64,000 nucleotides of DNA, taken from positions 744,001 through 808,000 of the forward strand of contig JABRWF010000002.1 of NCBI GenBank assembly GCA_018343915.1. Reading direction: 5' to 3'. This stretch comes from Agroathelia rolfsii (Eukaryota; Basidiomycota; Agaricomycetes; Amylocorticiales; Amylocorticiaceae). Positions 15,458-43,246 of this stretch are shown here, piece by piece (within the stretch, counting starts at the first letter, position 1; each line of letters starts with the position of its first letter). The position numbers and the translations under genes were made by a program. The notes beneath the pieces were generated by a model. The model made no database searches. It was not told the origin of the DNA and was given only the letters and a program-made list of their open reading frames with translations.

Positions 15458-16487
15458 TGTTAAAAGTTAGTGGTAATGGTGTAATGTAGACTACTTGTAA
15501 TCTACTAGTTACTTATTTAAAAGACAACTAACTTACTTGTTTGAAAAGTTAATGGTCTGTTGGGTTATAGGTTTAAAGGCAATAAAACCTATTTGTGAAA
15601 GCAATTAGTAACTTTGTTACACCTAAGATAAGACTATAGCCGGTGTCCCTTTGAGACTACCTACTTATTTCCCTTTAGGAAAGGCTTGTTGTCTTGTCTT
15701 GTAGACTTTGTAAGTCTAGGGTGAAGTTAGTACTCTAGGAGCTAGTCTTGTAGACTATTTAACTCACTATTTTTGAGTGAAATAACTTGTCATTTCCAGC
15801 CGAATTTGCTGGTGCTTATATAATACAAAATATTCTAATTTCTACAAGATTAGTAAGCCAATCCTGTGCTTATCTAATCCGCTTAGTAAGAAGGTTGCTT
15901 ACAAATCAGCTTATAAATCAGCTTAGTAATATTCCTATTTGCTGAATAATACGCTTGGTAAGCAATCTGTGTGCTTAGTAAGTAATTTGTATAGTATTAG
16001 TAAGTAAAATGTCTATTGATCTCAATATCCTATTATTAGATCTGTATTAGTAATATTTTATAAATATTACTAATATTATGAACTTGCTTAGTAAATATTT
16101 TGGTGATTTATAAGCAAGGATCTAGGGCGTGAAAAATCAATTAGTAATATTCACAATGATTATTGAGAAATGAATATTTTAAATGGAATTGTTTAATATT
16201 TATGAAAAAGATATTCATAAATGATAAAGTCAAGTAACCTTAGATATGATGATCTTATCTCTGATAAGATTAGATATAATGAAATATTGAAAATATTAAA
16301 TAAAAGAATATATGCATATTATTTCAATGAATATATGCATGTAAAGAATTGTTAATATCTCAACAATGAACGGTTGTAAAATCATGAAATAAATAATCAT
16401 GTATGACATGATATTAGATGATTATTTGAAGTATTCATTGGAATTATTGGAAAGATATGAAGTTTGTAAATATTCAATCTTTCAACA
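15458..16487 (-). repeat. Copia-A 3' LTR (1030 bp)
   Basis: It begins TGTTAAAAG and ends CAACA. On the minus strand it is preceded by the purine tract at 16488-16500. It contains the same splice-donor motif GTAAGT as the 5' LTR. Confidence 0.93.
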
Positions 16488-16506: not shown

Positions 16507-19500
16507 TTATTGCTTTAACCATCTAAGATCGTTTGTTAGTCCAGCTAAATTTGAGAAATAGCTGTGCTTTGTTTCTGCCAAAGGCTTGGTTAAAACATCT
16601 GCTAGCTGTTGGTTAGTATTAATATACTCAGTCCTAGCAGTACCATCGGAGACTGTTTCTCTGATAAAGTGATGCCTAACTTCAATGTATTTAGTACCTC
16701 TACCACCATGTTTAGGGTTATTGGCTAGGCTAATAGCTCCTTGATTATCTGTGAAAATAGTTGTTGGGTTAGATATATCTTCACCTATGTCATTTAGTAG
16801 TTTCCGTAACCATTTAACTTGTTTTGCTGCTTCTGTGAGAGCCATATATTCAGCTTCTACACTGGATAATGCAGTAGTGTGTTGTCTTCTGGTTGACCAG
16901 GAAGTTGCACCTTTGCACATCATGGTAATGTATCCAGTTGTAGATTTCCGGTCATCTAAGTCCATTGCCCAATCTGCATCTGAATATGCGGTTAATTCTT
17001 TTGGGTGTTGTCCTTGGTAGACAATGGCTTTATCCGGGGTTTTGGATAGGTATTGGAATATATGATTTACTGCAGTGAAATGCTCTTTTCCCGGATTTTC
17101 ACTGTACTTCGCACATTTGTTTACAGCAAAAGTGATGTCTGGCCTAGTTATGATGGTTAAGAATGTGAGTGAACCAATCATACTTTTGTAGTGGGTTTTA
17201 TTGGCCTCTGTCACTTGGTTAGGATTAGATTTGAGTTGGATGCTTGCTGACATCGGTGTAGAATATCCTTTTGATTTTTCTTTTTGGAATTTCTTTAGGA
17301 TATCTTTACAGTAATCTTTTTGATCAATAGACAGTAATTTCTTTTTCCTGTTTCTATTGATGTTGACGCCTAGGAATGATTTAGCTTCTCCAAGATCTTT
17401 CATTTCATATTTCTCCATAAGTTTTTTCTTGAAGTCTTGAATTCGCTTTTTCACTTTTCCCATGATTAATAAATCATCAACATATAAAATAAGAATGATT
17501 TTATCATTTGGGTCTCCCACTTGTTGATGGTTTATGTAGATACCTGCATCTGAGTGTGTTCTTTTGAAATTCATTTTTTCAAGTGTTGAATGTATTTCAA
17601 AATTCCACTGTCTACCTGCTTGTTTTAATCCATAGAGGGATTTTTTAAGCTTGCAGACTTGATCTTCTTTTCCTTTGACTGAAAAACCTGTGGGTTGTTC
17701 CATGTAAATTTCATGGTCAAGTTTTCCATAAAGGTATGCAGTGGTAACATCCATTTGGTCAATTTCCCAATCACTATATGTGGCAATTGCAAGTAAAACT
17801 CTGAATGCCTTATATCTTGCGACTGGTGACCAAGTGTCATCAAATGTATCATTTGTTTGTAAATCTCCTCTAGCAACATATCTAGCTTTGTAACGTCCAT
17901 CTGATTTAATATTTAGAACCCATTTTCCTTTGAGGATTGTCTTGTTTTTGGGTCTATTAACCAGATCATAAACATCCCTAGATTTTAATGAATCCATTTC
18001 TTTTTTCATAGCTTCTTCCCATTTTTCATGGTCAGGTGAATTCATTGCTTGTTTATATGTTCTGGGAATATTTTCGACGTCTGCAGCTAATGTTAGCAGA
18101 TGATTTATAGTTGGTTGAACTGGTTCGATTTGGCTTGAAGTGACATAGTCTTTATATCTGGGATTAGGTCTCTTTTCTCTTCTAGGTCGACTTGTTTCTC
18201 CAGGATCTATGTTTGCTTCTGGTATTGGGGATTCACCTGGGCAATATTCTTCAGAAAATTCTCCAAGTGGTCCAAATCTGCCTGTTCTTCCAAGTGCTCC
18301 AGAAATACTATCTGGCTCTAGCTCTTCGTCACGTATTTCAGTATCTCTTAACTCTTCAAGATATGAAATATCTTCTTCTTCATCTGTTGTAGAGATAGGG
18401 TTTGTTATATTCCCTATGTCTATGTATTCATCTTGTTTTCGAGGATAAAGTATTTTTTCTGAGGTAGTTTCAGAACCTGATACATCTGCCTCATTGTTTT
18501 AAGGTAGCATATATTGAGCCTTTTTCTTTTCTTTCATAGGAAATATGTGTTCATCGAACTTAACATCGTATGAATCCCATATCTTTCCAGTAATTGGATC
18601 GTAAAGTCTCCAACCTTTGGAACCTTCTGGGTATCCTATGAAAATTATTTTTCTGGCTTTGTCTGAAAGTTTATTTTTTCTACCTTCCTTTGGAATAGTC
18701 ATCCATGCTTGACATCCAAATACCCGTATCCTTGATATATCTGGTTGTTTTCCATACCAAGATTCATATGGAGTTTTCCAGGATTGAACTCTAGTAGGTG
18801 TACGGTTATAGATGTATAATGCCGCTTCCATGGATATTTTCCAAAAACCTTCTTTCATTCCAGCAGTTTTCCTAATGGCTTCAGCTTTTTCATGGATGGT
18901 TCTTTGAACTCTTTCTGCTCTGCCATTTTGTTGGTGTGTATGCGGAATAGAAATTTCTCTAGAAATACCAAAGTCATTGAGAAATTTGTCAAAATCTTTT
19001 GACATATATTCTCCACCTCTATCTGATCTGATAGTTTTTAACTTATTTCCAGATTGCCTTTCTGACCATGTAACATATTTTTTAAATGCTTCAAGTGTTT
19101 CATCTTTTGATGATATGAAGTACATTGTGCAATATGAAGTGGCATTATCTAGGAATGTCACAACATATTTTATGTTACTCCGAATGGCATTTACTGGAAG
19201 TGAGTATAAGTCTGAGTGTACCAAATTATTTGGGTTTTTAGTACGCTCTGGAGATGGAAAATGTGATGCTCTAATAGATTTTCCTAGTGCACAACCTTCA
19301 CAGGTTTCAAAAGATGTTTTTCCTATATTTTTAGGTCCACCTATGGTGTTTCCTAAGATTTTATGGATAACATCACTACCTGAGTGTGCAAATCTTTGAT
19401 GAATTAATTCATAGGGTGTTTCTTCTGAGCTATGCAAAGATTTTGCATGTTGACTTTGTGTAATTGATCCTCTAAGCTCAAAATTATTGTTTAGGTTGAT

Positions 19501-20853
19501 GTATGCGCTTAGAATCTTTTTCTTGTTGATCATTAATTCCATAGTTTTTCCAGATTTTCCAATGATCCATATCCCATTTGTTTTTTGTGAAATTTGTTGA
19601 GGGGATAGCAATCTTTCTCTAGTATCTGGAATATACCTGACATTTGTAATGTCGAGTACATGTATTCTCCCACTGGAATCAATGTGTTTGATTTTGACAG
19701 TACCTATCCCTTTAATTGGGAGTCTGGTGCCATCTGAGATGATTATGTATTTTTGTTTTTCAGGAGAGAATGGTTTGTACTGGTGAAAATCCTTTAAATC
19801 AAATGTGGAGTGATGACTAGTACCTGAATCAACTAGGTAAAAGAATTCATCATCCTGTGTTTTTTCTGTTTGATACAGAGAGAGTGAAGTATTTATTCCT
19901 TCATCGGAAGAGCCTTCAACTTCTTCTGTTCTTTGATTTGTTTTGGATTTTCCACCATAGTTTTTCTTTCCTGCATTTTTTCAATTAAGAGGTTTCCAAT
20001 TGTCTATGTGTTTGTCAGTAGTATGTTTAACATACTTTTTGCACTTTTTGCAATAGTTTTTGTTATCTGACTCCTGACTATTTGTTTTGTCTTGACCTTT
20101 AAATTTCTTTTTGAATTTTCTTTGGCCTTTAGACATATTGGACCTGCTTTGAGATTTGTTATTAGTATGGAGAGATTCACGTATAGTTTGTTCCTGCTGC
20201 AATTCTCCCCGGATTAAGTCTATTGTGGCCTTCTCGTAACCTCCCACTGCTCTTAGGATACTACCCCAAATCATGCGGTATGAATCTGGAAGTATTTCTC
20301 CTATGCGTGAGATGAAATCCTTTTCACCAATAGATAATCCTGTAGCATTGGCTCTTGTCTGTATTTCTTGCATTTCTGAGATTTGTGTAGCCATTGATTT
20401 ATCAGTCCTGAGTCTGTAGGAGTAGAACTCAGTATGATATCTTTGACCTTCTGCAAGTCTTTGAGCTTTTGCCGCTGTGTAAATTTTATTCCACATTTTA
20501 GCAGCTGTTTCTTCAGCCATTAAAATATTTGCCCAAGTTTCATTTACACATCCTCCAAGTAAACCCTTTGCACGATCATCTGCTTGATCCCATGCATTAG
20601 CTAGAATGATTTTTTTGTCTTCTCCCCAAGAAATCCCTGCAGCTGAAGCTAATTCTTGTGATAGAATTTCTGCTGGCTTGAGATCTGGTTTTTGTAAGGG
20701 AGTAGGATCATCCTTGGGTAATCCTTTGGAGAACATTGTCCAAATGCGCAATGACTTGGCTAGGAAATAAAATTTAACTGAGAATTTGGCCCAATTTGAA
20801 CCGTTGAAAACAGGAAATCCTAAGGGTATATCTTTTATAAGTATTTCAGTCAT
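16507..20853 (-). pseudogene. Copia-A gag-pol polyprotein, two in-frame stops
   Basis: From ATG 20853 one reading frame of 1449 codons runs to TAA 16507-16509, broken only by TGA at 19981-19983 and TAA at 18499-18501. Order: a UBN2-like gag (residues 1-290) with the knuckle YCKKCKKYVKHTTDKH, which has His in place of the last Cys of a CCHC knuckle; protease LVDSGTSHH; integrase with an HQRFAHSG..CEGCALGK finger and DDE residues (VHSDLY, TIRSDRGGEYMS, QQNGRAER); then RT with LILYVDDLLIMG and RNase H ending TDNQGAIS...VRHHFIRE. The order protease-integrase-RT defines Ty1/Copia. The first stop sits at the gag/protease border, so it could be programmed, but simple CGA-to-TGA and CAA-to-TAA changes explain both. 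Confidence 0.92.
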
Positions 20854-20859
20854 TTTGAC

Positions 20860-23800
20860 TTATACAAATTCCCAGGATATAAAGCTGTCTTCGATAGGAT
20901 ATAGATATATGCTATAATTTTCTATAATCCTGTTAAGGGTTGTTTCAAGGTATTCCTTGTGATGATTTTCTAGGAATTCCTTAAAGTCTTTAAGGTTTAG
21001 ACCTGGATGTATGTGTCAAGGGTACTCCTTGACTTGGCTTGGACGTTTGGGCGCGGGGTGCCTACTTTGTCTTCGTACAAATCACGGGCACCAACTCGAC
21101 ACTAGAACCAAAGTACCTAAGCTAAATAGTTTTCCCACACACGGATACCCTTTCTTATTGGGGTTCGTGTAGGTACTCTATTACTTAGCTTACGAAATGC
21201 TCACGCGTATGTATACACACTTATGTGGGGATTTACACCACCACCTAGTAAAGGAGGAAGAGAAAGGGGGGGCTAGGACTATTAGGCTAGGCCTAGGTGT
21301 AGAAATACCCTGAAGGCGAAGATTATATTAGTAATCTAGTTAAATAAGTACAAACCATTACTTGCCTAAAGGCGAAGAGGTCGAAGCTAAGCCGTTCAGG
21401 ACAAGTTACATGCTACTTTTATACTACTACGAAAGGTCCGTGCGCAGCTTTGATGGTCTGTGCGCAGCCGGAGATAGAAGCGTAATTGTGGCAATGTAGG
21501 GGAAGAACTTTTACCCTAACTCCACCGGGCATCCGTGTGGAGCTCCTTGCGGAGTGGTACCGGTAACCGTTAGGAATCATTCTGTGATGGAAGGCTGTAC
21601 TTCCAAGACTGTGCGTGATGGTGAAAGAGAAGCACACAGCCCCGAGATTACTCCTGTGACGTGCGGCTTGGAGCACGTGAGGGCCAATCAGGTGACCACT
21701 GCACTGCCCACAGTCCACGCCCTAAAGGGTAATTTTATAAGGAAAAGTAAAGAAAATGACATAGTAAGAGGGATAGTAGTCCAAATAATACAAGAGATAT
21801 ACTGAAAAATCGGCGAAAATTGCCTTCTCATGACATTACCCCCTTCTTAGGGGGATTTCCTCCGGAATATCCCCAGTTCCCATGCTCCTCCAATTTTTTC
21901 TGTCGGGCCGTTCGTGAAGTTTTCCAAGGGTCGGAAGGGTAGTTCCGCAAAGGCTGCAGCGGTTAGGCGTTTAGGCGCTTTGGGGTTCTTTCGGTGAAAC
22001 TCCTTCAATAAACGGGGTGCGTTCGCGACATCTTTTTCCGGTTCCCACGAATCTTCTCCTGGGTAGCCCTTCCATTCAACAAGATATTCAAGTTTTTTGG
22101 TCCGCGGGCTTAGGCGGCTGTCTTTAATTTGTAAGACTTCATGCTCTTCCTCTCCTTCGATTTCGACCGGTGGTGGTGGCGGTGGCGCTGGTCTAGATTC
22201 TACTTGGATATGGGGTTTGATGAGGGAGACATGAAAAACATTGTGGATAGTCCACCTTTTTGGGATCGCTAATCGTAAAGCCCGACTTCCTACTTTCTCA
22301 ATAACCTTGTAGGGACCAATCCATTCTGCGGATAATTTCTTCGAGGGTTGTGCTAGTCGGATATTTTTGGTGTTCAGCCAAACTTTGTCTCCGACCTCGT
22401 ATTTTGGTGTTCTAGATGCATGTTTGTCGAAGAAATATTTCATCTGATCCGCGGTATGGTCTAAGGCTGCCTTGGCGTCTTCTTGGAGATCCTTGACCTT
22501 GCTTAACCAATTTTTAGCTCCTTCCGTATGTAAGATTCCTGCCGTGGTTAAGTCCATTTTGGGTGAAAATCCGTAGTTCATTTCAAACGGTGAGGACTTC
22601 GTGGCCGAATGTTGTCGGTTATTTAGCGCAAACTCGGCCAATGGTAATAAGCCGGACCAATTATCTTGCCGGTGAGAAACGTAGTTTCTTAGGTAAACCT
22701 CTATTTCTTGATTGACACGTTCTGTTTGTCCGTCAGACTGGGGGTGATAAGCCGTAGAGAGAGATGTTTTGATGTCCAATTGTTTGTGAATTTCTCTCAT
22801 GACTTTTCCGGCAAATTGGGGTCCGCGGTCAGATGTCCATGTTTTAGGGAGTCCGTGGAGTCGGAAAATATTTGCGAGGTATAGGTCTGCCATTTCTGAT
22901 GCCGTGATTGCTTCCACACAAGGGATGAAATGCGCCATTTTTGTCAGCCTGTCTACCACCACTAGAATGGAGTCGAAGCCCTGTGATTCGGGTAGCTTGA
23001 CTATCATATCGGAGGTCACATGCTCCCATGGGAGGTCTGGGGTAGGGAGTGGAGCAAGCGGGCCGGCGGGCATGCTTCTGGACTTTTTGTTTGCCAGACA
23101 GCTAGGGCATGAGTCAACGTAATTATTTATCCCTTTCGTCATTCCAGGCCACCAGTAGTTACGGGAAACTAATTCAAGCGTCTTGTGTCTACCCGGGTGA
23201 CCAGCTGCTGGTACATCATGGTTTAGGCGGATGATATCATTTCGTAACACCGTGTCTCGCGGTACATACACCTTTCCTAAGTGTAGTATCAGCCCGTTTT
23301 CCTCGTTCCATTCTTCTAGGCCTTTCTGGAGTTTGACCGGTCCAAGTTCCTTGACTAATCCAAGTGCGTTTGCAATTTCGGCATCTCTTCCTTTATTTCT
23401 GATGCGGTCTAGGATTGCCTTTTCCCCGGAGACTTCTATGTGACCCCTTCTTGCGGCATTGATGCAGAATAATTTAGGGTCCAGAACGATTTGATCGAGG
23501 TTGTCTTGTTCGTCAGATCGTTGGAAATCCGGTCGTCGGGAAAGGGGGTCGGCGCGCCCGTTTTCAGACCCTCGTAGGTAGGAGATGACAAATCGGAATT
23601 CTGATAGGAATAGGGACCATCTGGCTTGGCGACGCGTGAGGTTCCGGGCCGTTTTCCAATATTCCAGATTCTTGTGGTCTGTCCGGATGTCAAACGGGGA
23701 AGGCAGTCCAATTAGGTAATGGCGCCAGGAATCAAGTGCGCGGATGATCGCTAGCATTTCTTTGTCCCAGATGTCGTAATTCCTTTCGGCATCATTCATG

Positions 23801-26800
23801 GCTTGGGAGAGGAAGGCGATGGGTCTCCATGAGTTGTCCGTTTGCTTTTGGAGTAAGACTGCTCCTGTGGCAAAGTTTGAGGCGTCGGTCTCGATCCGTG
23901 TTTCTGCGTGTTGATTGTAAGCTCCCAGTACCGGTGCAGAAGTAAAAGCCTGTTTCAATTTGTCAAAAGCTTCTTGTTCGTCTGTGCCCCATTTCCATTC
24001 TGCTTTTCCAGTGAGCCGGTCTAGTGGTTTACAGATGCGCGCGAAGTCCCTAATGAACCGTCGGTAGTAGTTGGCTAGTCCGCGGAATTTTCGTACATCA
24101 GAGACCTTTTGAGGGGTAGGCCAATCTAAGATTGCCTTGACTTTTTCTGGGGTCATACGGATGGAACCAAAAGATACAAGTGCCCCCAGGATATCGACTT
24201 CTGGAACATCGTATTCAAACTTCTCTAAATTGGCGAACAGATCATTGGACTTAAGTACTGCTAGAGCTTCCTTGACGTGTGACCGTAGTTCGGGTTCAGA
24301 CTGTGCTCCAATAATGATGTCATCTATGTAGTGTACTAGCCATCCCTTCTGGTTGAACTCGTAAAAGAGGTCGTCCATCATGGTTTGCATAGTAGCCGGA
24401 GCGTTACATAAGCCGAAGGTCATGACCGTTGGTTCGAAAAGCCCTTTGTTGGTGATAAAGGCTGCTTTGTGTTTGTCGCCTTCCCGAATGCAGATATTGT
24501 TGAATCCCCACCGGAGGTCTATTTTGGCAAAAGTTTTGAACCGGGTCATTTTGTCTTGGAGCTCTGAGATTAAGGGGAGCGGGTACGCGTTTTCCACAGT
24601 TTCGGCATTGAGCTTTCGATAATCTTGGACAGGCCGAAGGGAACCATTCTTTTTTGGCACAAAGAACATAGGAGCGGCAATTGGACTTTCCGACTTCCTA
24701 AGGTACCCTTTTTCCAAATTTTCTCTAAGATAATCTACAAGGGCTTCCTCCTCTTTTACTGAGAGGGGATACGCTTTGCTTCTTCGTAGTTGAGCGTTGT
24801 CTTTGAGAACAATTTTATGATCCCAGGGTTTTCGAAGAGGCATGCGCTGTGAGGCTTCCTTAGAGAAGACCAATGAGAATTCGTTCGCCCATTCTGGCAA
24901 GAGAGAGGAGGAAATTCGTAGATTCTTTCCGGGTTCGATTCTCCCTGCTGACCAGTCTATGATAGGGTTCTCAAGTCTTAACCAATCGATGCCTAAGATC
25001 ACGCTTTCTGGTCCAATATCGGTGACTAAGAATGGGAGTTTCTTTCTTACTCCTGCTATAGATGTTTCTAGGAACGTAATTTCTTCTATCGCTCCTTGTG
25101 CATTTGCAGAATTGTCAATATTGAATAGGGGGATGGGGCGTGGTAACTTTTTTGTCTTTATGTTATTTTCTTTTATGAAATGTGAATGTACAAAAGATGA
25201 TGAAGCACCAGAGTCAATCATGGCTACTGTGACAAGAGAGGAAAATAGTCCATGGAACATGAGGGGTATATGTAGGTGCTGTCCATGCGCACCAGAGATA
25301 GATACAGAGTTACAGGAGAGGAGAGAGGAGAAACGATTACACAAATAAGGGTCGGCCGAAATGGCCCTTTCCGTCGACCCTTCTAAAAACCCGCTTTATC
25401 CTTGAACGCGGCGAGTGCCATTCCTTGCTGTTCTACGATGGCTTGTAGATCGGCTATCGTGAGTGCCGAGGTTTCTTCGTTGGGGGTTTCATGGGGAATA
25501 CCCTGCTGATCTTGCGAGGGCGTGGCAGAGGTAGTAGAAGCCTGGATTCGGGGTTGACTTCCCCGGTATCTTGAGACTTTCGGATTGGTACATGTTGAGG
25601 CAAAATGCCCCCATTGCTGACAGTTGTAGCACTGTACTGTGCTAAGATCTCGTCGTGACCTGCTAAAGCCGGTACCGTCTGCCGTTGGTCTTGTCGTGCC
25701 CCCTGTTCCTTGCGCAGCGTTTATTACAATTGGGTTGCTTGCGCTTCCCTGGGTGTTTTGTTGCTGCTGTTGGAAGCGGGGGCGCGGCTTCCAACCGTCC
25801 GTCCAGATCCCAGCGTCGCGTAGGCCTTCTTCGGCGTCAACTGCCGCTTCCATCAGATTTTCCAAGGATTCCTTGCGTTCCTTTGAATATCCCGCAATGA
25901 CTCCGCGGATCTTTGGAGATAAGGCATCCCAATACCTGACTTTCAAATCCTCGCCTGAAAGTTTCGTTTCGGCGGCGAGGGCGGAGAAAGCAGCTGTAAA
26001 GTCAGCCACCGAGTTCGTTCCTTGTTTGAGGTCTTTTAGTTTTTGGAGGGCGAGCCTTCCAAAATCGCGAGATCCGTACAACGCTTTAAATTTGTCATAC
26101 AGATTTTTTTCGAACTCGAACCCCTTTATCCTGATGGTTGAGTCAAATTTCCTTGCCCAGGCTTTGGGCGACCCTTCTAGCAGACTGATGAAGAAGCGGG
26201 CCTTGAGTTCTTCCGTGTTATAAATCCGCGGGTTCATGCGGAGATGATTATCGAACCCAAAGATGAAGGACTGATACTTAGTCCAATCACCGGAGAACTT
26301 TTCGGGGGCCTGGCCAATTTCTTTGGGGGTACTTGTCGGTGCGGCTGCGACGGTTTGTGGGGTCCGTTCGAAGACGCCAGTCATTTGCGCCTGTGTTTCC
26401 TGGACCAGGCGGAGTGTTTCCTCCATGCGGGATTGGTTTGCCTGGAGGGCGGCAAGGATGTTGATCAGCTCCTGCGAAGCCATTTCGGGTTCTGAGGGAA
26501 GTGCAGGTGACTCAGGAAGGGGAGGAGAAGGGACAGGTGATGGTACGAGGGATGCGGGCCTAGAAGGAAGGAGATCCTCGACTTCCTCTTCTTCTTCTTC
26601 TGACTCTTCTTCTTTTTCGTCTGATTCGTATTTGGATGAAGAGGGATCTTCTTCAAAGAACGGAAGTTGTTCTAAGAAGGCGAATGTGTGTACTTGGTCC
26701 TCTGCGGGCTTGTAACTTGCGCCGCTGCGTGTACTCATACACTAGAGCAAGGTGCGTTTTTCTTCGTCACCAGCGGGTGCTGGTTACCAAATGCGGTGGA

Positions 26801-28640
26801 CGGGATTTTGTTCTTCGGCAGGGGCTAGAGCTTGCCCGTAAAGTAGTCACACAATAAAATCACGCAAAAAATAGTTATGGCAGGGGGGGGTGGTAAAAGG
26901 TGCCACTCGTGCTTAGCAACAATAAACTTTGATTCCCCGAAAGGAACTCCTAGAACGCTAGACTTTTTAGGCCTATTACTGCGCTTTGGATACAGCCGGT
27001 TTTCAGGAGGAACGTACTCCTTAGTCCCGTCTAGACTGGGTTGCAAATAGGCTTTGGAGGGCGCTACGCAATTGCTTCCAGAAGTAGTTTGTTGCTTTCA
27101 CGCTCAGAAAAAGGGTCTTTCTCTTTTTTTTTTAAAAATAGAAGTGGGGGGCTCTTCGTGTACGATCGTCACTTGTACCTTCTCAGACCGTGGAAGTCCG
27201 AGGGAACTGGTAGCTTCGACCTAATGTCAAGGGTACTCCTTGACTTGGCTTGGACGTTTGGGCGCGGGGTGCCTACTTTGTCTTCGTACAAATCACGGGC
27301 ACCAACTCGACACTAGAACCAAAGTACCTAAGCTAAATAGTTTTCCCACACACGGATACCCTTTCTTATTGGGGTTCGTGTAGGTACTCTATTACTTAGC
27401 TTACGAAATGCTCACGCGTACGTATACACACTTATGTGGGGATTTACACCACCACCTAGTAAAGGAGGAAGAGAAAGGGGGGGCTAGGACTATTAGGCTA
27501 GGCCTAGGTGTAGAAATACCCTGAAGGCGAAGATTATATTAGTAATCTAGTTAAATAAGTACAAACCATTACTTGCCTAAAGGCGAAGAGGTCGAAGCTA
27601 AGCCGTTCAGGACAAGTTACATGCTACTTTTATACTACTACGAAAGGTCCGTGCGCAGCTTTGATGGTCTGTGCGCAGCCGGAGATAGAAGCGTAATTGT
27701 GGCAATGTAGGGGAAGAACTTTTACCCTAACTCCACCGGGCATCCGTGTGGAGCTCCTTGCGGAGTGGTACCGGTAACCGTTAGGAATCATTCTGTGATG
27801 GAAGGCTGTACTTCCAAGACTGTGCGTGATGGTGAAAGAGAAGCACACAGCCCCGAGATTACTCCTGTGACATGCGGCTTGGAGCACGTGAGGGCCAATC
27901 AGGTGACCACTGCACTGCCCACAGTCCACGCCCTAAAGGGTAATTTTATAAGGAAAAGTAAAGAAAATGACATAGTAAGAGGGATAGTAGTCCAAATAAT
28001 ACAAGAGATATACTGAAAAATCGGCGAAAATTGCCTTCTCATGACAGTATGCTATCCCAATGTCCTGAATTATAGAGGTAGATTATATCGTCTAATCTCT
28101 CTATATCTGTAAGACTAACTTTGTCTTCAATTTCCTCCGGTGTGAAGTATGGTATACTCCAATTATGAGGCGTTGGAGTGATTTTTATAAGATACCTTGT
28201 ATGGTTTTGAGAGTTTTCTCTTACTTCTTCGTCTGGAAATGTGAAGGGTTCGACTTTGTCAAATCTTCCGAATACTCTTGCGAGAATTATTCTTTCTGCA
28301 CAGAGAGTGAAGAATTTGTTCTGGAAATCCTGACTGACTTTTTCCCAATTATATTTGGTACTGTCAAATAGGAATTTCTTTATTTCCAGGTATAATTCTG
28401 GGTTTCTGGATGATGTAGGGAAATCTTTGTGGTATGTTTCCCAACAAGATTTAAGGGTGATATGCCCTTCTCTTCGAAGTTTCTTTTTGTTTTTCTTTTC
28501 TAAGAGTTTAAGAGCAGTTTTGCTTAATTTCTTAGAAGGTTTTTCTTCTTCAAACTCAAAAGGTTTCTGAGTCTGTGTATCTTCTTCACCTGTGTCAAAT
28601 AAGTGAGTTTCTATTTCCTGATCTGAATCCAGAATAAAGG
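20860..28640 (-). CDS. Copia-A leader ORF2: long frame without ATG, interrupted by Gypsy-3
   Basis: On the minus strand 28640-28047 is open for 198 codons. Removing Gypsy-3 and one TSD, it continues through 21013-20863 to TAA (20860-20862), giving about 250 codons, and the stop lies just upstream of the gag-pol ATG. There is no ATG, GTG or TTG start in the first 198 codons, and a TGA lies just upstream near 28655, so translation must enter by splicing. A candidate acceptor is TTCTGGATTCAG at about 28622-28633. The sequence has an acidic start, a Lys-rich segment (LLEKKNKKKLRRE) and a Trp/Phe-rich body. I do not recognise the family. Confidence 0.55.
21014..21835 (-). repeat. Gypsy-3 3' LTR (822 bp)
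   Basis: It begins TGTCAAGGG and ends ATGACA. It abuts the purine tract that precedes it on the minus strand. Confidence 0.94.
21847..25382 (-). CDS. Gypsy-3 pol polyprotein, intact
   Basis: The -1 frame from the gag terminus is open for about 1180 codons to the stop at 21847-21849. Domains: aspartic protease (MIDSGASSSFVHS), RT with the catalytic YIDDIIIG, RNase H (ETDASNFATGAVLLQ), integrase with HHCC finger (GHPGRHKTLE ... CPSCLANK) and DDE core (SDMIVKLPES, TSDRGPQFAG, YHPQSDGQTE), GPY-type module (WIGPYKVIEKVG), and chromodomain (LEYLVEWKGYPGEDSWE). No stop or frameshift is visible. Gag is also intact. There is no ATG near the pol start, so the protein must come from Gag-Pol frameshifting. 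The chromodomain suggests targeting to marked chromatin. Confidence 0.94.
25383..26738 (-). CDS. Gypsy-3 gag, intact (451 residues)
   Basis: ATG at 26738 and TAG at 25383-25385. An acidic, Pro/Ser-rich N-terminus (residues 1-95) is followed by a helix-rich segment, the gag core beginning PEKFSGDWTKYQSF, a Gln run, and a CCHC zinc knuckle CYNCQQWGHFASTC near residue 375. The protein would form the particle shell and bind element RNA. It is close to Gypsy-1 gag over its whole length but lacks the stop found there. The stop codon overlaps the frameshift site that gives Gag-Pol. Confidence 0.95.
   Translation of the reverse strand: MSTRSGASYKPAEDQVHTFAFLEQLPFFEEDPSSSKYESDEKEEESEEEEEEVEDLLPSRPASLVPSPVPSPPLPESPALPSEPEMASQELINILAALQANQSRMEETLRLVQETQAQMTGVFERTPQTVAAAPTSTPKEIGQAPEKFSGDWTKYQSFIFGFDNHLRMNPRIYNTEELKARFFISLLEGSPKAWARKFDSTIRIKGFEFEKNLYDKFKALYGSRDFGRLALQKLKDLKQGTNSVADFTAAFSALAAETKLSGEDLKVRYWDALSPKIRGVIAGYSKERKESLENLMEAAVDAEEGLRDAGIWTDGWKPRPRFQQQQQNTQGSASNPIVINAAQGTGGTTRPTADGTGFSRSRRDLSTVQCYNCQQWGHFASTCTNPKVSRYRGSQPRIQASTTSATPSQDQQGIPHETPNEETSALTIADLQAIVEQQGMALAAFKDKAGF
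25386..25392 (-). promoter_or_regulatory. Gypsy-3 -1 frameshift heptamer GGGTTTT
   Basis: It is in gag frame G GGT TTT immediately followed by TAG, and the -1 frame is open into pol. It is identical in Gypsy-1 and Gypsy-2. Confidence 0.78.
27212..27222 (-). other. Gypsy-3 self-priming PBS
   Basis: Read on the minus strand, aggtcgaagct follows the 5' LTR end after two bases. It is the perfect complement of the LTR 11-mer at 27589-27599, which lies downstream of a TATAAAAG box near 27626-27635. Confidence 0.75.
27225..28046 (-). repeat. Gypsy-3 5' LTR (822 bp)
   Basis: Nearly identical to 21014-21835. It carries a TATA box and the self-primer 11-mer at 27589-27599. Confidence 0.94.
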
Positions 28641-28787
28641 TTTTTATGCCAAAGTTTCAGGTAAAGCTCAATACAGACCAAAATTAAAATGATGAGCTTA
28701 TAAAAACTTATGTTGGGCAGACTTTAAGAGAATTCAGAGAAATAGAATACAATGAATATTTGTGGTAACTAAATGCTATAGTTACTT

Positions 28788-28982
28788 TCACAAAAATACA
28801 GATAGAAGAAATTTTAAAAAATAGAAGAAGATTTTTGAAAGAAAATAGAGCTGTATAAAAGATACAAGGGCTCCAAACAACAAAAAGAGATAGAAAAATT
28901 TATTTAGAATGAGGATGATTCTGATGTATATAAAAAAATGTTCAAAAGGGAGTGTATCTGTGCTCCCTGTTTCTCCTGCCAC
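28788..28982 (-). other. Possible small hydrophobic ORF overlapping the end of leader ORF1
   Basis: A 64-codon ATG frame overlaps the last 41 nt of leader ORF1 in another frame. After about 14 polar residues it is almost entirely Phe/Leu/Ile, which would make one or two membrane helices. The region is T-rich on the coding strand, so hydrophobic codons arise by chance. I list it only because its position between two long leader frames is suggestive. Confidence 0.2.
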
Positions 28983-30607
28983 CTCTGTGTGATATACCAG
29001 TCTGATTCTCTAAGATCCTCCTGGTCTGTGCTTCAAACCTATCTTTAAATTCCCTCAACTCTCCAGAGTGTCTCCTGCTGAAATTTCTCTGGTGTAGATC
29101 AATGTCAACAAGTCTCCTACTCTGGGTATTCACCAATCTTTTAAGGTTTTCAAGTTCCTCCTGGGTCTTGATCTCCTTTGCTTTCTGGATCTTGTTGGTC
29201 CAACCAATGGTGTACTGGAGGCCCCGGACTTCTCTGGTAAGGTCCTCTAAGGAAGACTTGTACCACGAAAGCTGTGAGGATTGGTGTTGGATAGTTTGCT
29301 CTAGGACGTCAACTGTCTTGAGAGCAAACTTGAGGAGTTCTAGTGGTGATGATAAGACTGGTTGTTAGTGAGGTTGTGATGTATTTAATTTAATAAATCA
29401 AATACCTTCACCGGGTTCAGGAATTTCTTGTGGTGTTGGAATCTTTGCCCAGTCGTTGAGCTCGTGATTTCCTATTGACCAGGGTGTATATGAACGATTT
29501 GAAGGTGGAGCAGTTGATTTTTGCTGACCTTCTGTACCCCAACCGATGATCTTGTCAATGGGTTCCTCAGGGAGTTTATTAAGCTCCTAAAAGTGTGTTA
29601 GTGATGGTGAAATGATAAAGTTTTGTTTACTTTACCTGAAGATCACCAATTGATTTATCTAGGGGGCTTCTTTCCACTAGATCGGCACTACTGACCAAGG
29701 GAGATAATGTGAAGGGGGAGGAGGTGTCAGAAATATTGATATCGGAAGGTTCTGACTCTTCTTCTCCTGGGTACACAAATTCTTCTTCTAGGTTATACCT
29801 AGCAGCTTCTTGAAATATATCCTGCACGGTCCAGCAAGGTCCTGTGGAGGGGATGTTGAAATGTTTACACCAGATGTCTTGCTGATGTGTTATTTCAGCT
29901 GTGATATAGGAGGTAATCTTATCGTGATCAAGGTTGTACTGGTCCTTGTTGACCTCAATATCTGTGATTATGGATATGTAAGTAGCTGGAGATTCCTTCC
30001 TGATATCCTTGAAGCTATTTGTGAAGTCCTGGTAAGTTTCCCAGTTGATTTCTGGGTTGATCGTAAATTTGCTGAGGGCCTGGTTGATATTATTGAGGCC
30101 TAGAGAATTTTATTAGTATTTTTTATCCTTTATTTTCGGATTTTTATACTATAATTCTCTTACTGTCTTCCTTTTCCTCGATGTCGTTGTCTGAGTCTAA
30201 AAAGGCCTGAAGGAGATCGATATCTTCTTCTTGCTTGATGGGTTCAGAGGGTGACCAGAGGATTTCTGTGCCTATAAAGAATTTATTAGTAATTCTTTTG
30301 ATTTATTTAATTAGTAGGCTTTACTCTTGAGATCCTTTTGCCACTGCTTGTCAATCTCTGATTGATCAATGGAGGTGGTGGGGTTACTGTTGGCAAAGTT
30401 GATTGCCTGGGCAACAGTGGTGAATGTGTTGGAGATCTCGGTGTTGAAGGAAGACACTAGAATAACAAATTTGTGTTAGTTACTCCTGTTTTTATACTGA
30501 CTGCCTTTTTAGGCAGGGCTCATAACCTGTTAAAAGTTAGTGGTAATGGTGTAATGTAGACTACTTGTAATCTACTAGTTACTTATTTAAAAGACAACTA
30601 ACTTACT
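28942..30607 (-). CDS. Copia-A leader ORF1: six-exon coiled-coil protein with a spliced start codon
   Basis: Exons are: a leader ending at 30607 in the 5' LTR, then 30325-30456, 30164-30271, 29636-30099, 29406-29586 and 28942-29357. All five introns are GT-AG and every junction keeps frame, giving 433 codons plus stop. The ATG forms only on splicing: the LTR exon ends in ...ACAA before a GTAAGT donor and the next exon starts TGTCTTCC, giving ACAATGTCT. The intron therefore removes the primer-binding site, so this would be a subgenomic mRNA. The protein is acidic in the middle (FVYPGEEESEPSD), then has a long charged helix predicted as coiled coil (about residues 300-400) and an Arg-rich tail RGGRRNREHR. 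No known domain was recognised. The architecture (oligomerising helix plus basic tail) suggests nucleic-acid or particle association, which is inference. Confidence 0.6.
30512..30527 (-). other. Copia-A primer-binding site, half-tRNA initiator-Met type
   Basis: On the plus strand the 16 bases ggcagggctcataacc abut the 5' LTR end. This matches the anticodon stem-loop of initiator tRNA-Met (CAT anticodon in gggctcataaccc), not a tRNA 3' end. Ty5 and Drosophila copia prime with such internal tRNA fragments. The tRNA comparison is from memory. Confidence 0.75.
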
Positions 30608-31557
30608 TGTTTGAAAAGTTAATGGTCTGTTGGGTTATAGGTTTAAAGGCAATAAAACCTATTTGTGAAAGCAATTAGTAACTTTGTTACACCTAAGATA
30701 AGACTATAGCCAGTGTCCCTTTGAGACTACCTACTTATTTCCCTTTAGGAAAGGCTTGTTGTCTTGTCTTGTAGACTTTGTAAGTCTAGGGTGAAGTTAG
30801 TACTCTAGGAGCTAGTCTTGTAGACTATTTAACTCACTATTTTTGAGTGAAATAACTTGTCATTTCCAGCCGAATTTGCTGGTGCTTATATAATACAAAA
30901 TATTCTAATTTCTACAAGATTAGTAAGCCAATCCTGTGCTTATCTAATCCGCTTAGTAAGAAGGTTGCTTACAAATCAGCTTATAAATCAGCTTAGTAAT
31001 ATTCCTATTTGCTGAATAATACGCTTGGTAAGCAATCTGTGTGCTTAGTAAGTAATTTGTATAGTATTAGTAAGTAAAATGTCTATTGATCTCAATATCC
31101 TATTATTAGATCTGTATTAGTAATATTTTATAAATATTACTAATATTATGAACTTGCTTAGTAAATATTTTGGTGATTTATAAGCAAGGATCTAGGGCGT
31201 GAAAAATCAATTAGTAATATTCACAATGATTATTGAGAAATGAATATTTTAAATGGAATTGTTTAATATTTATGAAAAAGATATTCATAAATGATAAAGT
31301 CAAGTAACCTTAGATATGATGATCTTATCTCTGATAAGATTAGATATAATGAAATATTGAAAATATTAAATAAAAGAATATATGCATATTATTTCAATGA
31401 ATATATGCATGTAAAGAATTGTTAATATCTCAACAATGAACGGTTGTAAAATCATGAAATAAATAATCATGTATGACATGATATTAGATGATTATTTGAA
31501 GTATTCATTGGAATTATTGGAAAGATATGAAGTTTGTAAATATTCAATCTTTCAATA
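30528..31557 (-). repeat. Copia-A 5' LTR (1030 bp)
   Basis: Same length as the 3' LTR. The outer terminus reads ...CAATA instead of CAACA. TATATAAG (plus strand 30885-30892) lies about 280 bp upstream of the GTAAGT splice donor at 30601-30606. Confidence 0.93.
30885..30892 (-). promoter_or_regulatory. Copia-A LTR TATA box
   Basis: TATATAAG on the minus strand in both LTR copies, placing the transcript start near 30855 and leaving the splice donor inside the transcribed part of the LTR. Confidence 0.5.
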
Positions 31558-34517: not shown

Positions 34518-34904
34518 GCTCGATAGTGATTACTGGAGACTCCCAAGGTGATTTGTACAAAGATAAAAGGTCTTTTGCCCTTTGAGCTAGGCCTAATTCT
34601 ACTAAGGTATTTACTTGTTTTGGGCTACTTGTAGCAACCGGAGTCTTTTTTGTCTATCCACTTGGGTGATGTTCCCTTTAATAGCTCGAAAAAACCAATG
34701 CAACCATGGATACTAATACCACTTGCAAGCTGGCCAAGAATACTCCCAAAACAAGAAATGTACAAAGGTGAAGACTACTACTTTGTAGGTTAAAATGACC
34801 GTGGTAGTCTACTAAATTTTTACAGTAATATTCTTTATGCTCAAAATAATGTAGCTCACTACACCACCCCTAGTGCACAAAGCAACTAGTTCAGAAAAAT
34901 GGAG

Positions 34905-34915
34905 AGATTTGTTCT
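34905..34915 (-). other. Gypsy-2 self-priming PBS
   Basis: Minus strand agaacaaatct, two bases beyond the 5' LTR. It is the exact complement of AGATTTGTTCT in the Gypsy-2 3' LTR (plus-strand 13176-13186), which lies 35 bp downstream of a TATATAA box. In the 5' LTR copy the 11-mer has since mutated. This is a different 11-mer from Gypsy-1/3 with the same design. Confidence 0.72.
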
Positions 34916-34917
34916 AA

Positions 34918-35881
34918 TGTCAAGAGCACACCAGTCTCTTGTCACTAAAACTCAACCAGAGCCTATGAAAACCTCTTTAAAGTGCAAGGTAGCCTGTAAT
35001 AGCTGTTTTACTTCTCCCAAGGCCTGGGAAGCGCAGGTGTACACTCCTTGTACCCTGTCTTAACTTTCACTCACTCTGGAGTACGCTAGTCACCAAACTT
35101 TACTCTAAGTCTGCAAGACTTTCAAGCAAGGTCTACTGTTGTAACACCAGGGGTCTTGTGTATGTCAATAGGGGTACAGGGTATCTTAACTGCAACAAGC
35201 TTAGAGCAGAGTCTTTGCTTGCTTGGGTGCACTAAGCACTATGGTTGTTTTGTGTTATTGCAAGTACAAATGGTCACCCAGAGGGCTGGACCTGTCTTAT
35301 GTACGCACACGGAGGTAGCACGGAGCACACCTCTACTGTAAGCAGTACTGAGCATGCTTACAACCTCCTAGCACAAAGCAGAGAGGATTTTTTGGGGGAG
35401 GGGAGGGAGATAGGGACTCTGAAGACGAAGTTTTATTATGTTAGTGACTACTTAATACAAAGCACTATTTGTGCTTACCTGAAGACAAAGAGAATGAATC
35501 TGGGGTCTTCAGGCAGGGGCACTATAGGGTTATATACTAATTCTACCTGGTCTGTGCACGGGGTACATGGTCTGTGCACAGTGGTGCTAAGTATGATGCA
35601 ATATTACACCATAGTGAGTTATTGCTTACATAATGTGTCACATGACTAGTGGTCACATGATGGCCAGTCACATGATGACTGATCACATGACTAGTGGTCA
35701 CATGATGGCCAGTCACATGATGACTGATCACATGACTTGCTTAGTCATCAAAGTACTTATGTAATGTCCACTTATGTAATACATGAATTATATACCAAAA
35801 AATAGAGAAAAATCAGAGAAAAATCAGAAAAATAATGAAAAATTCTAAATAAATTTATAATACAATGAGCGACTCATAACA
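34918..35881 (-). repeat. Gypsy-2 5' LTR (964 bp), uninterrupted
   Basis: It starts TGTCAAG and ends CATAACA. It carries a 45-bp tandem duplication of tcacatgat-containing sequence near 35640-35730 that the 3' LTR lacks. Confidence 0.9.
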
Positions 35882-36603
35882 CTTAAGATAAGATTGTAGC
35901 TGGTGTCCCTTTGAGACTACCTACTTGTTTTCCCTTGGGAAAGGCTTGTTTTCTTATCTTGTAGACCTAGTAAGTCTGGGGTGAAGTTAGTACCCTAGGA
36001 GCTAGTCTAGTAGACTATTTAACTCACTATTTTTGAGTGAAATAACTTATATTTTACAGCTGATTTAGCTAGGGTTTATATACTACAAAATATTCTAATT
36101 TCTGAAGGATTTGTAAGTAATGTCTTTGCTTAAGTAATCTGCTTAGTAAGCAAAGAGCGTAAGGTTTATGTTGACAAATCCGCTCTATAAGCTAAGTATA
36201 GTATTTGTAAGCAAATTGAATATTTGAATAAATAGGAAAGTGATATTAGTAATATATCTCAAATATTACTAATATCTTTGAAGGTGATTACTAATTTATT
36301 TGTGTGATTTGTAAGCTAATTTATAATTACAATCATGTATTAGTAAGTAAAGTGAATTGTTTGAATAAAAGATATTTAAAATGAATATTTAAATGATTTT
36401 AAGAAATGAATATTGAAATATGAATATATTTTGGAAATATTCAGAATAAAGTGAATGAATAATTGTTTTATTTCTCCATAACTAATAGTTGTAAATTCTT
36501 GAAATAAATAACAGTGATAGATAAGATATAAACTGATTTATTGAAGTATTTATTGGAATATTTAGAAAGATTTGATGTATTGAAATATATATATCTTTCA
36601 ACA
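35882..36603 (-). repeat. Copia-type LTR 'B', right fragment of the outermost host LTR
   Basis: It continues the LTR started at 5398-5567 and begins with the TSD CTTAA. It ends CTTTCAACA. It is related to the Copia-A LTR (gtgtccctttgagactacctac) but clearly diverged. Confidence 0.75.
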
Positions 36604-36866
36604 GATTTTTGCTTTCCTTTTCTCTTACATTTCACATACTTTGCAATGTCAACTAAATAAATACAATTTATTACAAAAAAGCTGTCTAGGATAGTGTGTT
36701 CTACAGGATGTACTACGTCATCATCTATTGGATGTGTTGTTAGTGTGGAGAATTTTTCAGCAAGGGAATATACTTGTATTGATTCCTACTTAGTTTTGTC
36801 ATCAGAGCCGTAAAAAATTCTTTCTTCAAACAGTATACTCCTATGACATTTGAGCAGGCATCCTTT
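36604..36866 (-). pseudogene. Short coding remnant of unknown family
   Basis: On the minus strand one frame reads almost openly across about 85 codons with a single stop (ILFEERIFYGSDDKTK, stop, then ESIQVYSLAEKFSTL and on to CKRKGKQKS). It abuts LTR-B through a purine-rich run, so it may be the internal 3' end of the Copia-B element or a scrap of another transposon. No family recognised. Confidence 0.3.
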
Positions 36867-36988
36867 GTCAAGAGCACACCTGCCTCTTGCCACTAAAACT
36901 CAACCAGTGCCTACGTAAACCTCTCTAAGATGTGAGGTAGCCTGTAATGGCTGTTTTACAACTCCCAAGGCCTAGGATGTGTAGGTGT
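36867..36988. repeat. Gypsy-2-family LTR fragment
   Basis: It begins TGTCAAGAGCACACCTGCCT, matching the first ~120 bp of the Gypsy-2 LTR, and is cut off by a Copia-A-type LTR at 36989. Confidence 0.7.
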
Positions 36989-38625
36989 TGTTAAAAGTTA
37001 GTGGTAATGGTGTAATATAGACTACTTGTAATCTACTAGTTACCTATTTAAAAGACAACTAACTTACTTGTTTGAAAAGTTAATGGTCTATGGTGTTATA
37101 GGTCTAAAGGCAATAAAACCTATTTGTGAAAGCAATTAGTAACTCTGTTACACCTAAGTTAAGACTATAGCCGGTGTCCCTTTGAGACTACCTACTTGTT
37201 TTCCCTTTAGGAAAGGCTTGTTGTCTTATAGTAGACTTAGTAAGTCTATTAGTGAAGTTAGTACTCTAGGAGCTAGTCTTTGTTAAGTCTCGGACGGACG
37301 GAGATAGCAGAAAAGGGAAGGGGCGGAGCGGAACGGAAGCGGAGACGGAGTGAACAGGAGTAGAGATGGGAGAGTGGATAGGAAAGGAGAGGGGTGACCG
37401 GACTTGGCCAAGACGTATGTGTCAGGCCCTTGCCTAGTTGCGGTCCGGGACAGGAGTCAGACAGGAGAAGGGGAACTAAGTTGATTTCCGAACTGAGGTA
37501 GCTAGGTACATGCTAGGTCGGTATAAATACTATAGTAACAGGAGGATACCAAGAGGAATAGAAATGAAGTGAGACGGAGAGTGGGAAACGGAATACAGGG
37601 CGCGAATGAGCCGAAACTATCTATGTGAACAAGGGTACCAGAACGTGTGGGGAAAATGATGAGAAAACAGGATACGTGAGAAGAGGAAAAGACTCCGGGA
37701 CCCCGGTCGGGCGCCGAGCAAGGGGTCGCTGGTTCCGACGCCCGAATCGCGGAGGGCGGAGAGCGGAAGTTGGGAGCCGGAGAGGTGTCTTTGGTTGTTG
37801 GATGGTAGTGGGCGAGGGTGAGTGGGGACATGTCGGAAATGTCAGAGTGGGAGCCACTTGTGCGCGGAGGGGGTCGTGACAGTCTTGTAGACTATTTAAC
37901 TCACTATTTTTGAGTGAAATAACTTGTCATTTCCAGCCGAATTTACTGGTACTTATATAATACAAAATATTCTAATTTCTACAAGATTAGTAAGCCAATC
38001 CTGTGCTTATCTAATCCACTTAGTAAGAAGGATTGCTTACAAATCAGCTTATAAATCAGCTTAGTAATATTCCTATTTACTGAATAATATGCTTGGTAAG
38101 CAATCTGTGTGCTTAGTAAGTAATTTGTATAGTATTAGTAAGTGAAAATGTCTATTGATCTTAATATCCTATTATTAGATCTGTATTAGTAATATTTTAT
38201 AAATATTACTAATATTATGAATTTGCTTAGTAAATATTTTGGTGATTTATAAGCAAGGATCTAGGGCGTGAAAAATCAATTAGTAATATTCACAATGATT
38301 ATTGAGAAATGAATATTTAAATGGAATTGTTTAATATTTATGAAAAAGATATTCATAAATGATAAAGTCAAGTGACTTCAGATATGATGATCTTATCTCT
38401 GATAAGATTAGATATAATGAAATATTGAAAATATTAAATAAAAGAATATATGCATATTATTTCAATGAATATATGCATGTAAAGAATTGTTAATATCTCA
38501 ACAATGAATAGTTGTAAAATCATGAAATAAATAATCATGTATGACATGATGTTAGATGATTATTTGAAGTATTCATTGGAATTATTGGAAAGATATAAAG
38601 CCTGTAAATATTCAATCTTTCAACA
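36989..38625 (-). repeat. Solo Copia-A-family LTR split by a solo LTR
   Basis: TGTTAAAAG to CAACA. It is about 1031 bp after removing the 601-bp insertion and its 5-bp duplication, close to the 1030-bp Copia-A LTRs. Flanks (ggtgt and tcata) do not match, so the original TSD is lost or the two ends derive from different events. Confidence 0.8.
37281..37881 (+). repeat. Solo LTR 'C', copy 1 (601 bp)
   Basis: TGTTAAG...GTGACA flanked by TSD GTCTT (37276-37280 and 37882-37886). GC- and CpG-rich compared with its surroundings, with TATAAATA near 37521. Open frames inside (for example minus 37502-37831) are without motifs and are treated as shadows. Confidence 0.8.
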
Positions 38626-39303
38626 TCATAGTTTCTAATTACTCTCTGCTATACTATTAGGGTCTGGATTGACCCTAGTTATCTTATCTCTCCATAGTGC
38701 ACTCTGTCCATAGACTTGTGACATTTATTATTATTATTATCAAGCTACAAATCATGCTATAGAAACTATTATACATAATATATCCACAGTATATTATCTA
38801 TAAGTCATAGTATATCATAGTAAACTATAGTTTATCATTTGGTCAAAGCTCAATTCCAAGCCCAAGGCTTAGAAACAGGTATTTTATTATTTCCGCTCCT
38901 TTTCACTGTTATGCTGGTTGTGACATATCACATGTTACATCACACAAAAGAGTGTAACTTTGCATTCCCCATCTTCAGGCACTATCACAGTTACACAGGA
39001 ACTGCAATACATCATGATAATCATTAAAACAATCAAGGAAGAACCTAGGAATAATATTGGATCATTTGGTAAGGATTAGTAACTAGAAAAGCATACCAAA
39101 GTAGGAGAACAATAGTATACAATTATGTATTTAAGTTACTAAGGTCTAAGAGATATTCCCTATCTCATAGACCTTTTTTGTCAATACTATCATTGTTATT
39201 CATTGTCCCAGGCTCTCTTTACACCTCTAAGCCCCTATTATACCACTCTTATTGTCCCAAGTTATAACCATAGTTATTATAGTTGTCAAAGTCATAGTAC
39301 ACT
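38626..39303. other. AT-rich intergenic/repeat debris, no gene seen
   Basis: It includes an ATT microsatellite near 38725 and short inverted repeats (ctatagtatatcatag region). No coding evidence. Confidence 0.4.
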
Positions 39304-39468
39304 TCTTTATAGTTAACCTTAGGGTTGGAAACCCTAAGAGTGTTACTACTAGCCTTAGATTAGGCTTTACAACCCATTGTTTACTGCTAAGTATTTTTAA
39401 TAGTCTTTTCTATAGTAATCCTTCATAGTATTCATAGTGCTCATAGTTATAGTTTATAGATCTGTGAC
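39304..39468. repeat. Repeat 'D', copy 1
   Basis: About 165 bp from cttagggttggaaaccctaa to ...agatctgtgaca. A diverged copy lies at 43768-43929 ending gcctgtgaca. Both are followed directly by Gypsy-2-family LTR fragments, suggesting a repeat terminus. Confidence 0.5.
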
Positions 39469-43033: not shown

Positions 43034-43246
43034 CTTGCTTGAAGACTTTGTAAGTCTAGAGTAAAGCTTGGTGATTAGTGAGCTCGGGGTTGAGTAAAAA
43101 CAAAGACAGCACACAAGGCATGTCTATCCTTACATCCCAGGCCTTGGGAGTTGTAAAATAGCCATTACAGACTACTCTGTACCTTACAGGGGTTAATGTA
43201 GGCTCTGGTTGAGTTTTAGTGATAAGAGTCAGGTGTGCTCTTGACA

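Follow-up and report, generated by a model that had tools for sequence, protein, structure and literature searches.

Introduction

Why should a retrotransposon carry, between its primer-binding site (PBS) and gag, a gene whose start codon exists only after splicing? This question is raised by an LTR element in the window, that is, the whole 64,000-nucleotide stretch of the Agroathelia rolfsii genome analysed here. A preliminary description of this DNA had proposed that a spliced accessory gene, here called ORF1, gains its AUG through removal of the intron that holds the PBS. In this work, the splice signals, the coding capacity and the AUG content of the region upstream of gag were compared between the window copy and the related copies found in the genome (37.7 Mb, 8 contigs), which fall into the subfamilies A, B and C.

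Results

A young Copia element in nested insertions

The element is a Ty1/Copia LTR retrotransposon, as it possesses the Copia domain order, a copia-type gag (Retrotran_gag_2 match of 45.3 bits, cut-off 27), two LTRs, a 5-bp target duplication and a PBS at the LTR end (Table 1). In pol, the rve domain lies within 18502-19980 and RVT_2 within 16510-18498. The target duplication AATGG flanks both outer LTR ends, and the 5′ and 3′ LTRs are unlike at just 2 of 1030 positions, and therefore the insertion is young. It resides inside a Gypsy element on the minus strand, and a second Gypsy element entered after the Copia insertion and interrupts the Copia leader. The window copy has pol in frame with gag after a TGA, a codon that is a sense codon in 8 of the 9 other copies reaching it.

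Several further features of the element and its surroundings were observed. The C-terminus of gag (window about 20052-20005) carries CKKCKKYVKHTTDKH (CX2CX4HX4H) instead of the usual CCHC knuckle; its cysteines are kept in other copies, and H to Y changes occur in L081 and L082. Five family members (C2:13213, C3:4585, C4:23168, C5:4297888 and C7:150) lie less than 25 kb from a contig end, perhaps in a subtelomeric position. Beside the element, related repeats in direct and inverted orientation are clustered at window 34900-43950; they are LTR-like and include TCACATGAC in tandem near 35638.

Table 1. Features of the Copia element in the window, with the strand and the basis of each assignment
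Feature	Position	Strand	Basis or remark
5′ LTR of the Copia element	30528..31557	-	LTR comparison
TATA-like TATATAAGCACC in the LTR	30881..30892	-	sequence
End of exon 1 in the LTR, giving the A of the split ATG	30607	-	donor GTAAGT 30606-30601
Intron 1 (150 nt), holding the LTR end and the PBS	30457..30606	-	splice signals, copies
PBS GGTTATGAGCCCTGC	30513..30527	-	directly after the LTR, within intron 1; matches the tRNA-Met anticodon arm
AUG-free stretch, three sense frames	28047..30522	-	ATG count
ORF1 exon 2, opening with TG of the ATG	30325..30456	-	copy alignment
Intron 2	30272..30324	-	exactly missing from L010 and L014
ORF1 exon 3	30164..30271	-	copy alignment
Intron 3	30100..30163	-	exactly missing from L012
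ORF1 exon 4	29636..30099	-	copy alignment
Intron 4	29587..29635	-	position common to subfamilies A, B and C
ORF1 exon 5	29406..29586	-	copy alignment
Intron 5, corrected	29340..29405	-	exactly missing from L009 and L014
ORF1 exon 6, with conserved C-terminal motif RFEAQTRRILENQTGISHRGGRR and stop	28942..29339	-	copy alignment
Hairpin between ORF1 and ORF2	28759..28796	-	also formed in subfamily B
ORF2 first part, putative CUG start (28632) to Gypsy insertion	28047..28632	-	no methionine
Second Gypsy element, inside ORF2 of the window copy	21014..28046	-	target duplication CATAC
ORF2 last part, past the Gypsy insertion	20860..21008	-	stop 20862-20860 adjoins gag ATG
gag (Retrotran_gag_2)	19984..20853	-	first AUG of the element after the PBS
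pol, with integrase ahead of reverse transcriptase RVT_2	16507..19980	-	Copia order
3′ LTR of the Copia element	15458..16487	-	LTR comparison

A donor in the LTR and a PBS within intron 1

Joining the donor ACAA/GTAAGT (30607/30606) to the acceptor TTATTCTAG/TGTC (30457/30456) yields an ATG, so that the LTR donor, the acceptor and the splice-made start codon of the preliminary description are all present, and the PBS indeed lies inside intron 1. Other copies with the same leader, a search that had been suggested as a check, were sought by a pattern of the PBS followed by TAGTGTC at the right distance; this found at least 27 leaders genome-wide, and the reversed pattern used as a control gave 0 matches in the genome. 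In 24 of the 27 leaders found, ACAAGTAAGT is present in the LTR, 62-88 nt upstream, completing the trio of donor, PBS and ATG-creating acceptor. The exact donor is missing from 3, which counts against the model, and that of L014 is damaged by a 4-nt deletion. In U5, the family LTRs with these signals diverge from the window LTR by as much as about 36%. Among the aligned subfamily-A rows that reach it, 14 of 14 keep intron 1; a copy without it is not expected, because splicing would have removed the PBS from the RNA along with the intron. At two other genome places with the PBS letters, L088 and L089, no GTAAGT occurs in the preceding 69 and 100 bases, and an ATG stands 16-17 nt after the match start. 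Judging from their signals, the intron 1 sites are probably used for splicing in RNA, and with a donor in the LTR and the PBS in the intron the window element would follow the logic of a retroviral subgenomic RNA with an LTR donor, as had been proposed.

The first 14 letters of the PBS have 64 exact genome matches, 27 being leaders of this Copia family; one of the remaining matches, L090, falls on a tRNA-Met gene predicted by ARAGORN and covers its cat anticodon. The primer of Drosophila copia is half of a tRNA-Met, a trait that is not common to all Copia elements, and the match seen here would fit such half-tRNA priming. In the window copy the PBS contains an ATG at 30523 that opens a four-codon upstream ORF (uORF), which would be unavoidable with a primer whose anticodon is CAU. 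Upstream, transcription probably starts about 30 nt downstream of the TATA-like box. The last ATG of the LTR (30863) lies 29 nt downstream of this box, and it may be inside the mRNA, which is counted against the model.

Structure and precise intron losses of ORF1

ORF1 was delimited in a subfamily-A alignment of 15 rows, namely the window and 14 copies. The segment missing from L009 and L014 comprises the 66 nt GTATTTG..CACTAG (29405-29340), not 29411-29358; intron 5 therefore spans 29405-29340 and the ORF1 protein has 427 residues. Consequently, of the five GT-AG introns described earlier, four stand as written and the boundaries of the fifth were wrong, while the frame given as 433 codons would have yielded 431 residues with the junctions then claimed. 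Seven rows are full-length and possess all introns; their exon lengths are equal save one 3-nt insertion, and introns 1-4 differ among them by 1-4 nt.

Besides the losses in subfamily A (Table 1), intron 2 of subfamily B is exactly missing from L075 and intron 5 of this subfamily from L070, which brings the precise losses to seven in six copies, affecting introns 2, 3 and 5 in five different intron-and-subfamily cases; some of the seven may have been inherited together. Exact loss from GT to AG is the mark of a spliced RNA that was reverse transcribed, and introns 2, 3 and 5 are therefore most likely spliced in the host. As all 14 rows reaching the PBS keep intron 1, these losses most likely came from RNAs that still had it. 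No loss of intron 4 was found in any copy examined, and this intron is present in 13 of the 13 subfamily-A rows covering it.

Purifying selection on the ORF1 protein

ORF1 is open throughout in 4 of the 7 full rows (window, L002, L006 and L007); stops occur in L003 (one), L004 (one) and L005 (two) of subfamily A and in L070 (two) and L075 (one) of subfamily B. Such stops would suit a six-exon frame that is a gene-finding artefact in a non-coding or decaying leader, but this explanation is exceedingly improbable, given that the introns are conserved and their losses precise, that the exon frame is kept, and that dN/dS is mostly near 0.1. Among 11 of the 15 rows, with 4 truncated copies left out, ORF1 dN/dS is 0.06-0.32 in 55 of 55 pairs; the near-neutral ratio named beforehand as a ground for abandoning the gene was not observed, and the copies demonstrate purifying selection on the ORF1 sequence. 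Further against an artefact, subfamilies A and B (L071) share 55% identical residues over 410 codons at dN 0.39 and a dS of 2.6, which is saturated. Subfamily C is represented by two copies, both on contig 7, and is further removed. One of these, L076, keeps an MSSF start and introns 4 and 5; both keep the C-terminal motif ILENQTGxSHRGG, and each has a stop inside ORF1. The protein starts with MSF in B and MSSF in C, the ATG arising from the same joint. The splice signals and the ORF1 protein are thus conserved across three subfamilies, which supports, at the level of sequence, the earlier proposal of a spliced accessory gene with an AUG made by removing the PBS intron.

The N-terminal part of the protein is acidic (53 acidic versus 20 basic residues in 290) and its C-terminus is basic (13 basic versus 6 acidic in the last 50 residues); a role in RNA binding or assembly would be a guess from this composition. 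Exon 4 is predicted, with low confidence, to encode a helical domain. The preliminary description took the product for a coiled-coil protein; on this point there is one weak match, of residues 303-368 to ADIP of Pfam (E 0.014), below the cut-off, and no recognised relatives of the ORF1 and ORF2 proteins were found in the collections searched.

Two further observations concern how the copies relate to one another. The family is mosaic, as by template switching: the exon 4 region (30099-29636) exists in two sequence types, whose middle thirds are about 25% apart, and in L002, L006, L010-L012 and L014 these types and several U5 types are shuffled among otherwise close copies. Subfamilies A and B are about 50-55% alike in the ORF1 protein, yet their DNA from 28593 to 28052 is 88-94% alike, and the similarity switches at window 28593, at an aligned ACAG in ORF2.

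A leader cleared of AUG

In the window, the leader from 30510 to 28044 (2467 nt) contains 0 ATG in any frame versus 26.7 expected, and beyond the Gypsy insertion the element has its next ATG at the start of gag (20853). No other ATG-free run on the window's minus strand is as long: this one measures 2481 nt and the next 831. To attribute this to base composition or codon bias alone, one could point out that the leader also lacks GCG and has few CGC, CGG and CGT; however, 2000 dinucleotide-preserving shuffles of the leader gave 13-40 ATG, its antisense strand has 40 (48.9 expected), and NAT codons are common except before G, which leaves this explanation next to no probability.

Codon choice at the sites that matter was then compared. 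A codon NAT in front of a codon starting with G would create an ATG. In ORF1 of A, ORF1 of B and ORF2 of A pooled, the codons before G are 0 NAT and 12 NAC, versus 57 NAT and 7 NAC in gag and pol (one-sided Fisher p 1.6e-9 for the pooled leader ORFs against gag/pol). The counts are 0 NAT and 2 NAC in ORF2 of B, and 2 NAT and 2 NAC in ORF2 of C, where no synonymous avoidance exists, counting against the model. The sole methionine of ORF1 is the split one, in the window as in L071. Overall, codon choice in the leader ORFs points to selection against AUG.

The survey of ATG in other copies covered 29 locus stretches, of which the 13 that are complete from PBS to gag were counted and 16 were left out: 8 shorter pieces starting downstream of the PBS (0-3 ATG each); L008, L010, L011, L013, L024 and L027, which run into other DNA or past gag; L042, which continues past a gag start that was not recognised; and the subfamily-C copy L076. 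Six of the 13 have the PBS ATG only (L002, L006, L070, L071, L072 and L074), and the other seven carry 1-5 more versus 23-34 expected: 1 in L003, 5 in L004, 4 in L005, 2 in L007, 3 in L009, 3 in L014 and 1 in L075. Among these seven, ORF1 is interrupted by stops in L003, L004, L005 and L075, and the donor is damaged in L014. L007, with an open ORF1, nonetheless has two extra ATGs, counting against the model, and L070 has ORF1 stops and no extra ATG. L076, whose ORF1 has a stop, holds five ATGs besides those of the PBS and gag (about 36 expected), and this also counts against it.

A different cause for the lack of AUG would apply if Gag were made from a spliced RNA of its own, joining the LTR donor to an acceptor just before gag, or by internal entry. 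The LTR donor is conserved, and spliced Gag RNAs have a precedent in Drosophila copia and barley BARE (PMC3735527). However, such an RNA gives no reason for clearing 2.5 kb of AUG in every frame, introns and intergenic stretch included, and we hold this explanation to be rather improbable.

A second reading frame without methionine

Between ORF1 and gag lies ORF2, of about 250 codons; the distance from its end to the gag ATG is 6 nt in A and 1 nt in C. No Met occurs in 14 of the 15 rows (L026 has one), and the length is kept in 14 of 15, L007 being 30 nt shorter; L024, L023, L029 and L036 have one or two internal stops, and L007 is interrupted too. ORF2 dN/dS is 0.21-0.53 among the listed pairs, whose members are equally long and show over 25 differences, and A and C share 33% of residues. 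Together, the AUG-cleared leader and this Met-less second ORF before gag provide a reason for the split start codon of ORF1.

The candidate start of ORF2 is aligned as ATT-CTG-G in A, ATA-TTG-G in B and AAG-GTG-G in C. A good initiation context has A at -3 and G at +4. CTG is found in 7 of 7 distinct A contexts and GTG in both of C; in B there is TTG in 4 of 7 distinct contexts and TTA in 3 of 7, the latter counting against such a start. Judging from these contexts, the chances are about even that ORF2 starts at a non-AUG codon at 28632 (CUG, UUG or GUG). About 130 nt upstream of this putative start, the hairpin formed in A by TTTGTG-aaa-GTAACTA..TAGTTAC-CACAAA has the paired change GTAGC..GCTAC in B (L071); this structure may serve for the landing of ribosomes or for packaging.

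Alternatively, ORF2 could be a last exon of the ORF1 gene: splicing from exon 5 to an acceptor near 28590 would then bypass exon 6, so that a single N-terminal part could be followed by either of two C-terminal parts. ORF2 has no Met of its own, the aligned ACAG is in phase 1 in subfamilies A, B and C, and exon 5 ends and exon 6 begins in phase 1, making the two exchangeable; yet such phase agreement arises by chance in about one case in three. Moreover, the exon 5-ORF2 joint was found in no copy, although those of introns 2, 3 and 5 were: a genome search for it returned 8 matches, all with 2 mismatches and none at family places, against 5 for the reversed pattern. This arrangement would also leave the absence of AUG from all frames of ORF2 and the preceding stretch unexplained, and we regard it as possible but unlikely.

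Discussion

Based on these findings, we propose, with good confidence, that ORF1 and ORF2 are accessory genes in a leader selected to be free of AUG, and that splicing decides which protein is made from each RNA. The gene structure, the purifying selection, the AUG depletion and the losses of introns 2, 3 and 5, all evident in the genomic copies, constitute the foundation of this proposal. First, the LTR promoter would yield a full-length RNA, and the unspliced form, which keeps the PBS, would be packaged and copied as the template of reverse transcription. On this RNA, scanning ribosomes would find only the uORF of the PBS and weak non-AUG starts ahead of gag, the non-AUG start of ORF2 would pass most ribosomes on, and the gag AUG about 2.6 kb downstream would be reached by scanning, giving Gag-Pol. 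Upon removal of intron 1, the RNA would lose the PBS, gain the AUG of ORF1 and never be copied; this AUG would be the first in the spliced RNA, or the second should transcription begin upstream of 30863. Partly spliced RNAs retaining intron 1 could still be copied, and the intron-loss copies would be their trace. The accessory protein would thus come solely from RNA that has lost the means to replicate, and the replicating RNA would never be blocked by a long upstream AUG frame.

Elements of this strategy are known from other systems. In rice tungro bacilliform virus (RTBV), ORFs I and II lack internal AUG, ORF III is translated by leaky scanning over 900 nt, ORF I starts at AUU, and P4 comes from spliced RNA only (PMC5902531). 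The window element resembles RTBV and the badnaviruses (Caulimoviridae) in two AUG-free ORFs before the main polyprotein and a further protein that would come from a spliced RNA. The scanning distance proposed here, 2.6 kb versus those 900 nt, counts against our model. Unlike RTBV, the window element is a Copia-type LTR element with the integrase before the reverse transcriptase and a leader of about 2.6 kb, wherein the spliced gene stands upstream of gag, its AUG is in two halves and the PBS lies in the removed intron. To our knowledge, Caulimoviridae have no integrase and no LTRs, unlike the window element, which has both.

Foamy viruses have their major splice donor within the LTR and ahead of the poly(A) signal (PMC3694450), comparable to the donor inside the 5′ LTR here. 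Their spliced RNA would therefore be without U5 and PBS. A similar LTR donor is present in deltaretroviruses. The downstream genes of foamy viruses carry their own AUG, unlike ORF1, and we know of no AUG-free leader in these viruses.

Within the Copia elements themselves, barley BARE and Drosophila copia produce a spliced subgenomic Gag RNA, and BARE has separate RNA pools for translation and replication (PMC3735527). The likeness is that splicing in a Copia element yields a separate RNA; unlike in the window element, the intron of those elements is part of gag-pol and their spliced RNA encodes Gag, no gene in the leader being described. Ogre, a plant Ty3/Gypsy element, has a 550-codon ORF of unknown function between LTR and gag, and as of 2005 no LTR retroelement was reported to have an intron ahead of gag (PMC1142308). 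The long ORF between LTR and gag is shared with the window element. The pol order of Ogre is of the Gypsy type, unlike the Copia-type order here.

A report of a Copia element combining these features was not found in the literature searched. What is new is the combination and its location in a Copia leader, the underlying principles being already known. It is probable, in our estimation, that the start codon serves as a splicing-dependent switch, as one splice would destroy the PBS and create the only AUG of the accessory gene, and that this is an independent invention in Copia joining the strategies of pararetroviruses and retroviruses.

The two roles of the RNA would be told apart by a feature visible in the DNA itself: PBS without accessory AUG, or accessory AUG without PBS. 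The depletion of AUG could serve as a homology-free signal in searches for other such leaders in Copia and Gypsy elements, and the precise intron losses may reveal, independently of any RNA sequencing, which spliced forms have served as templates of reverse transcription.
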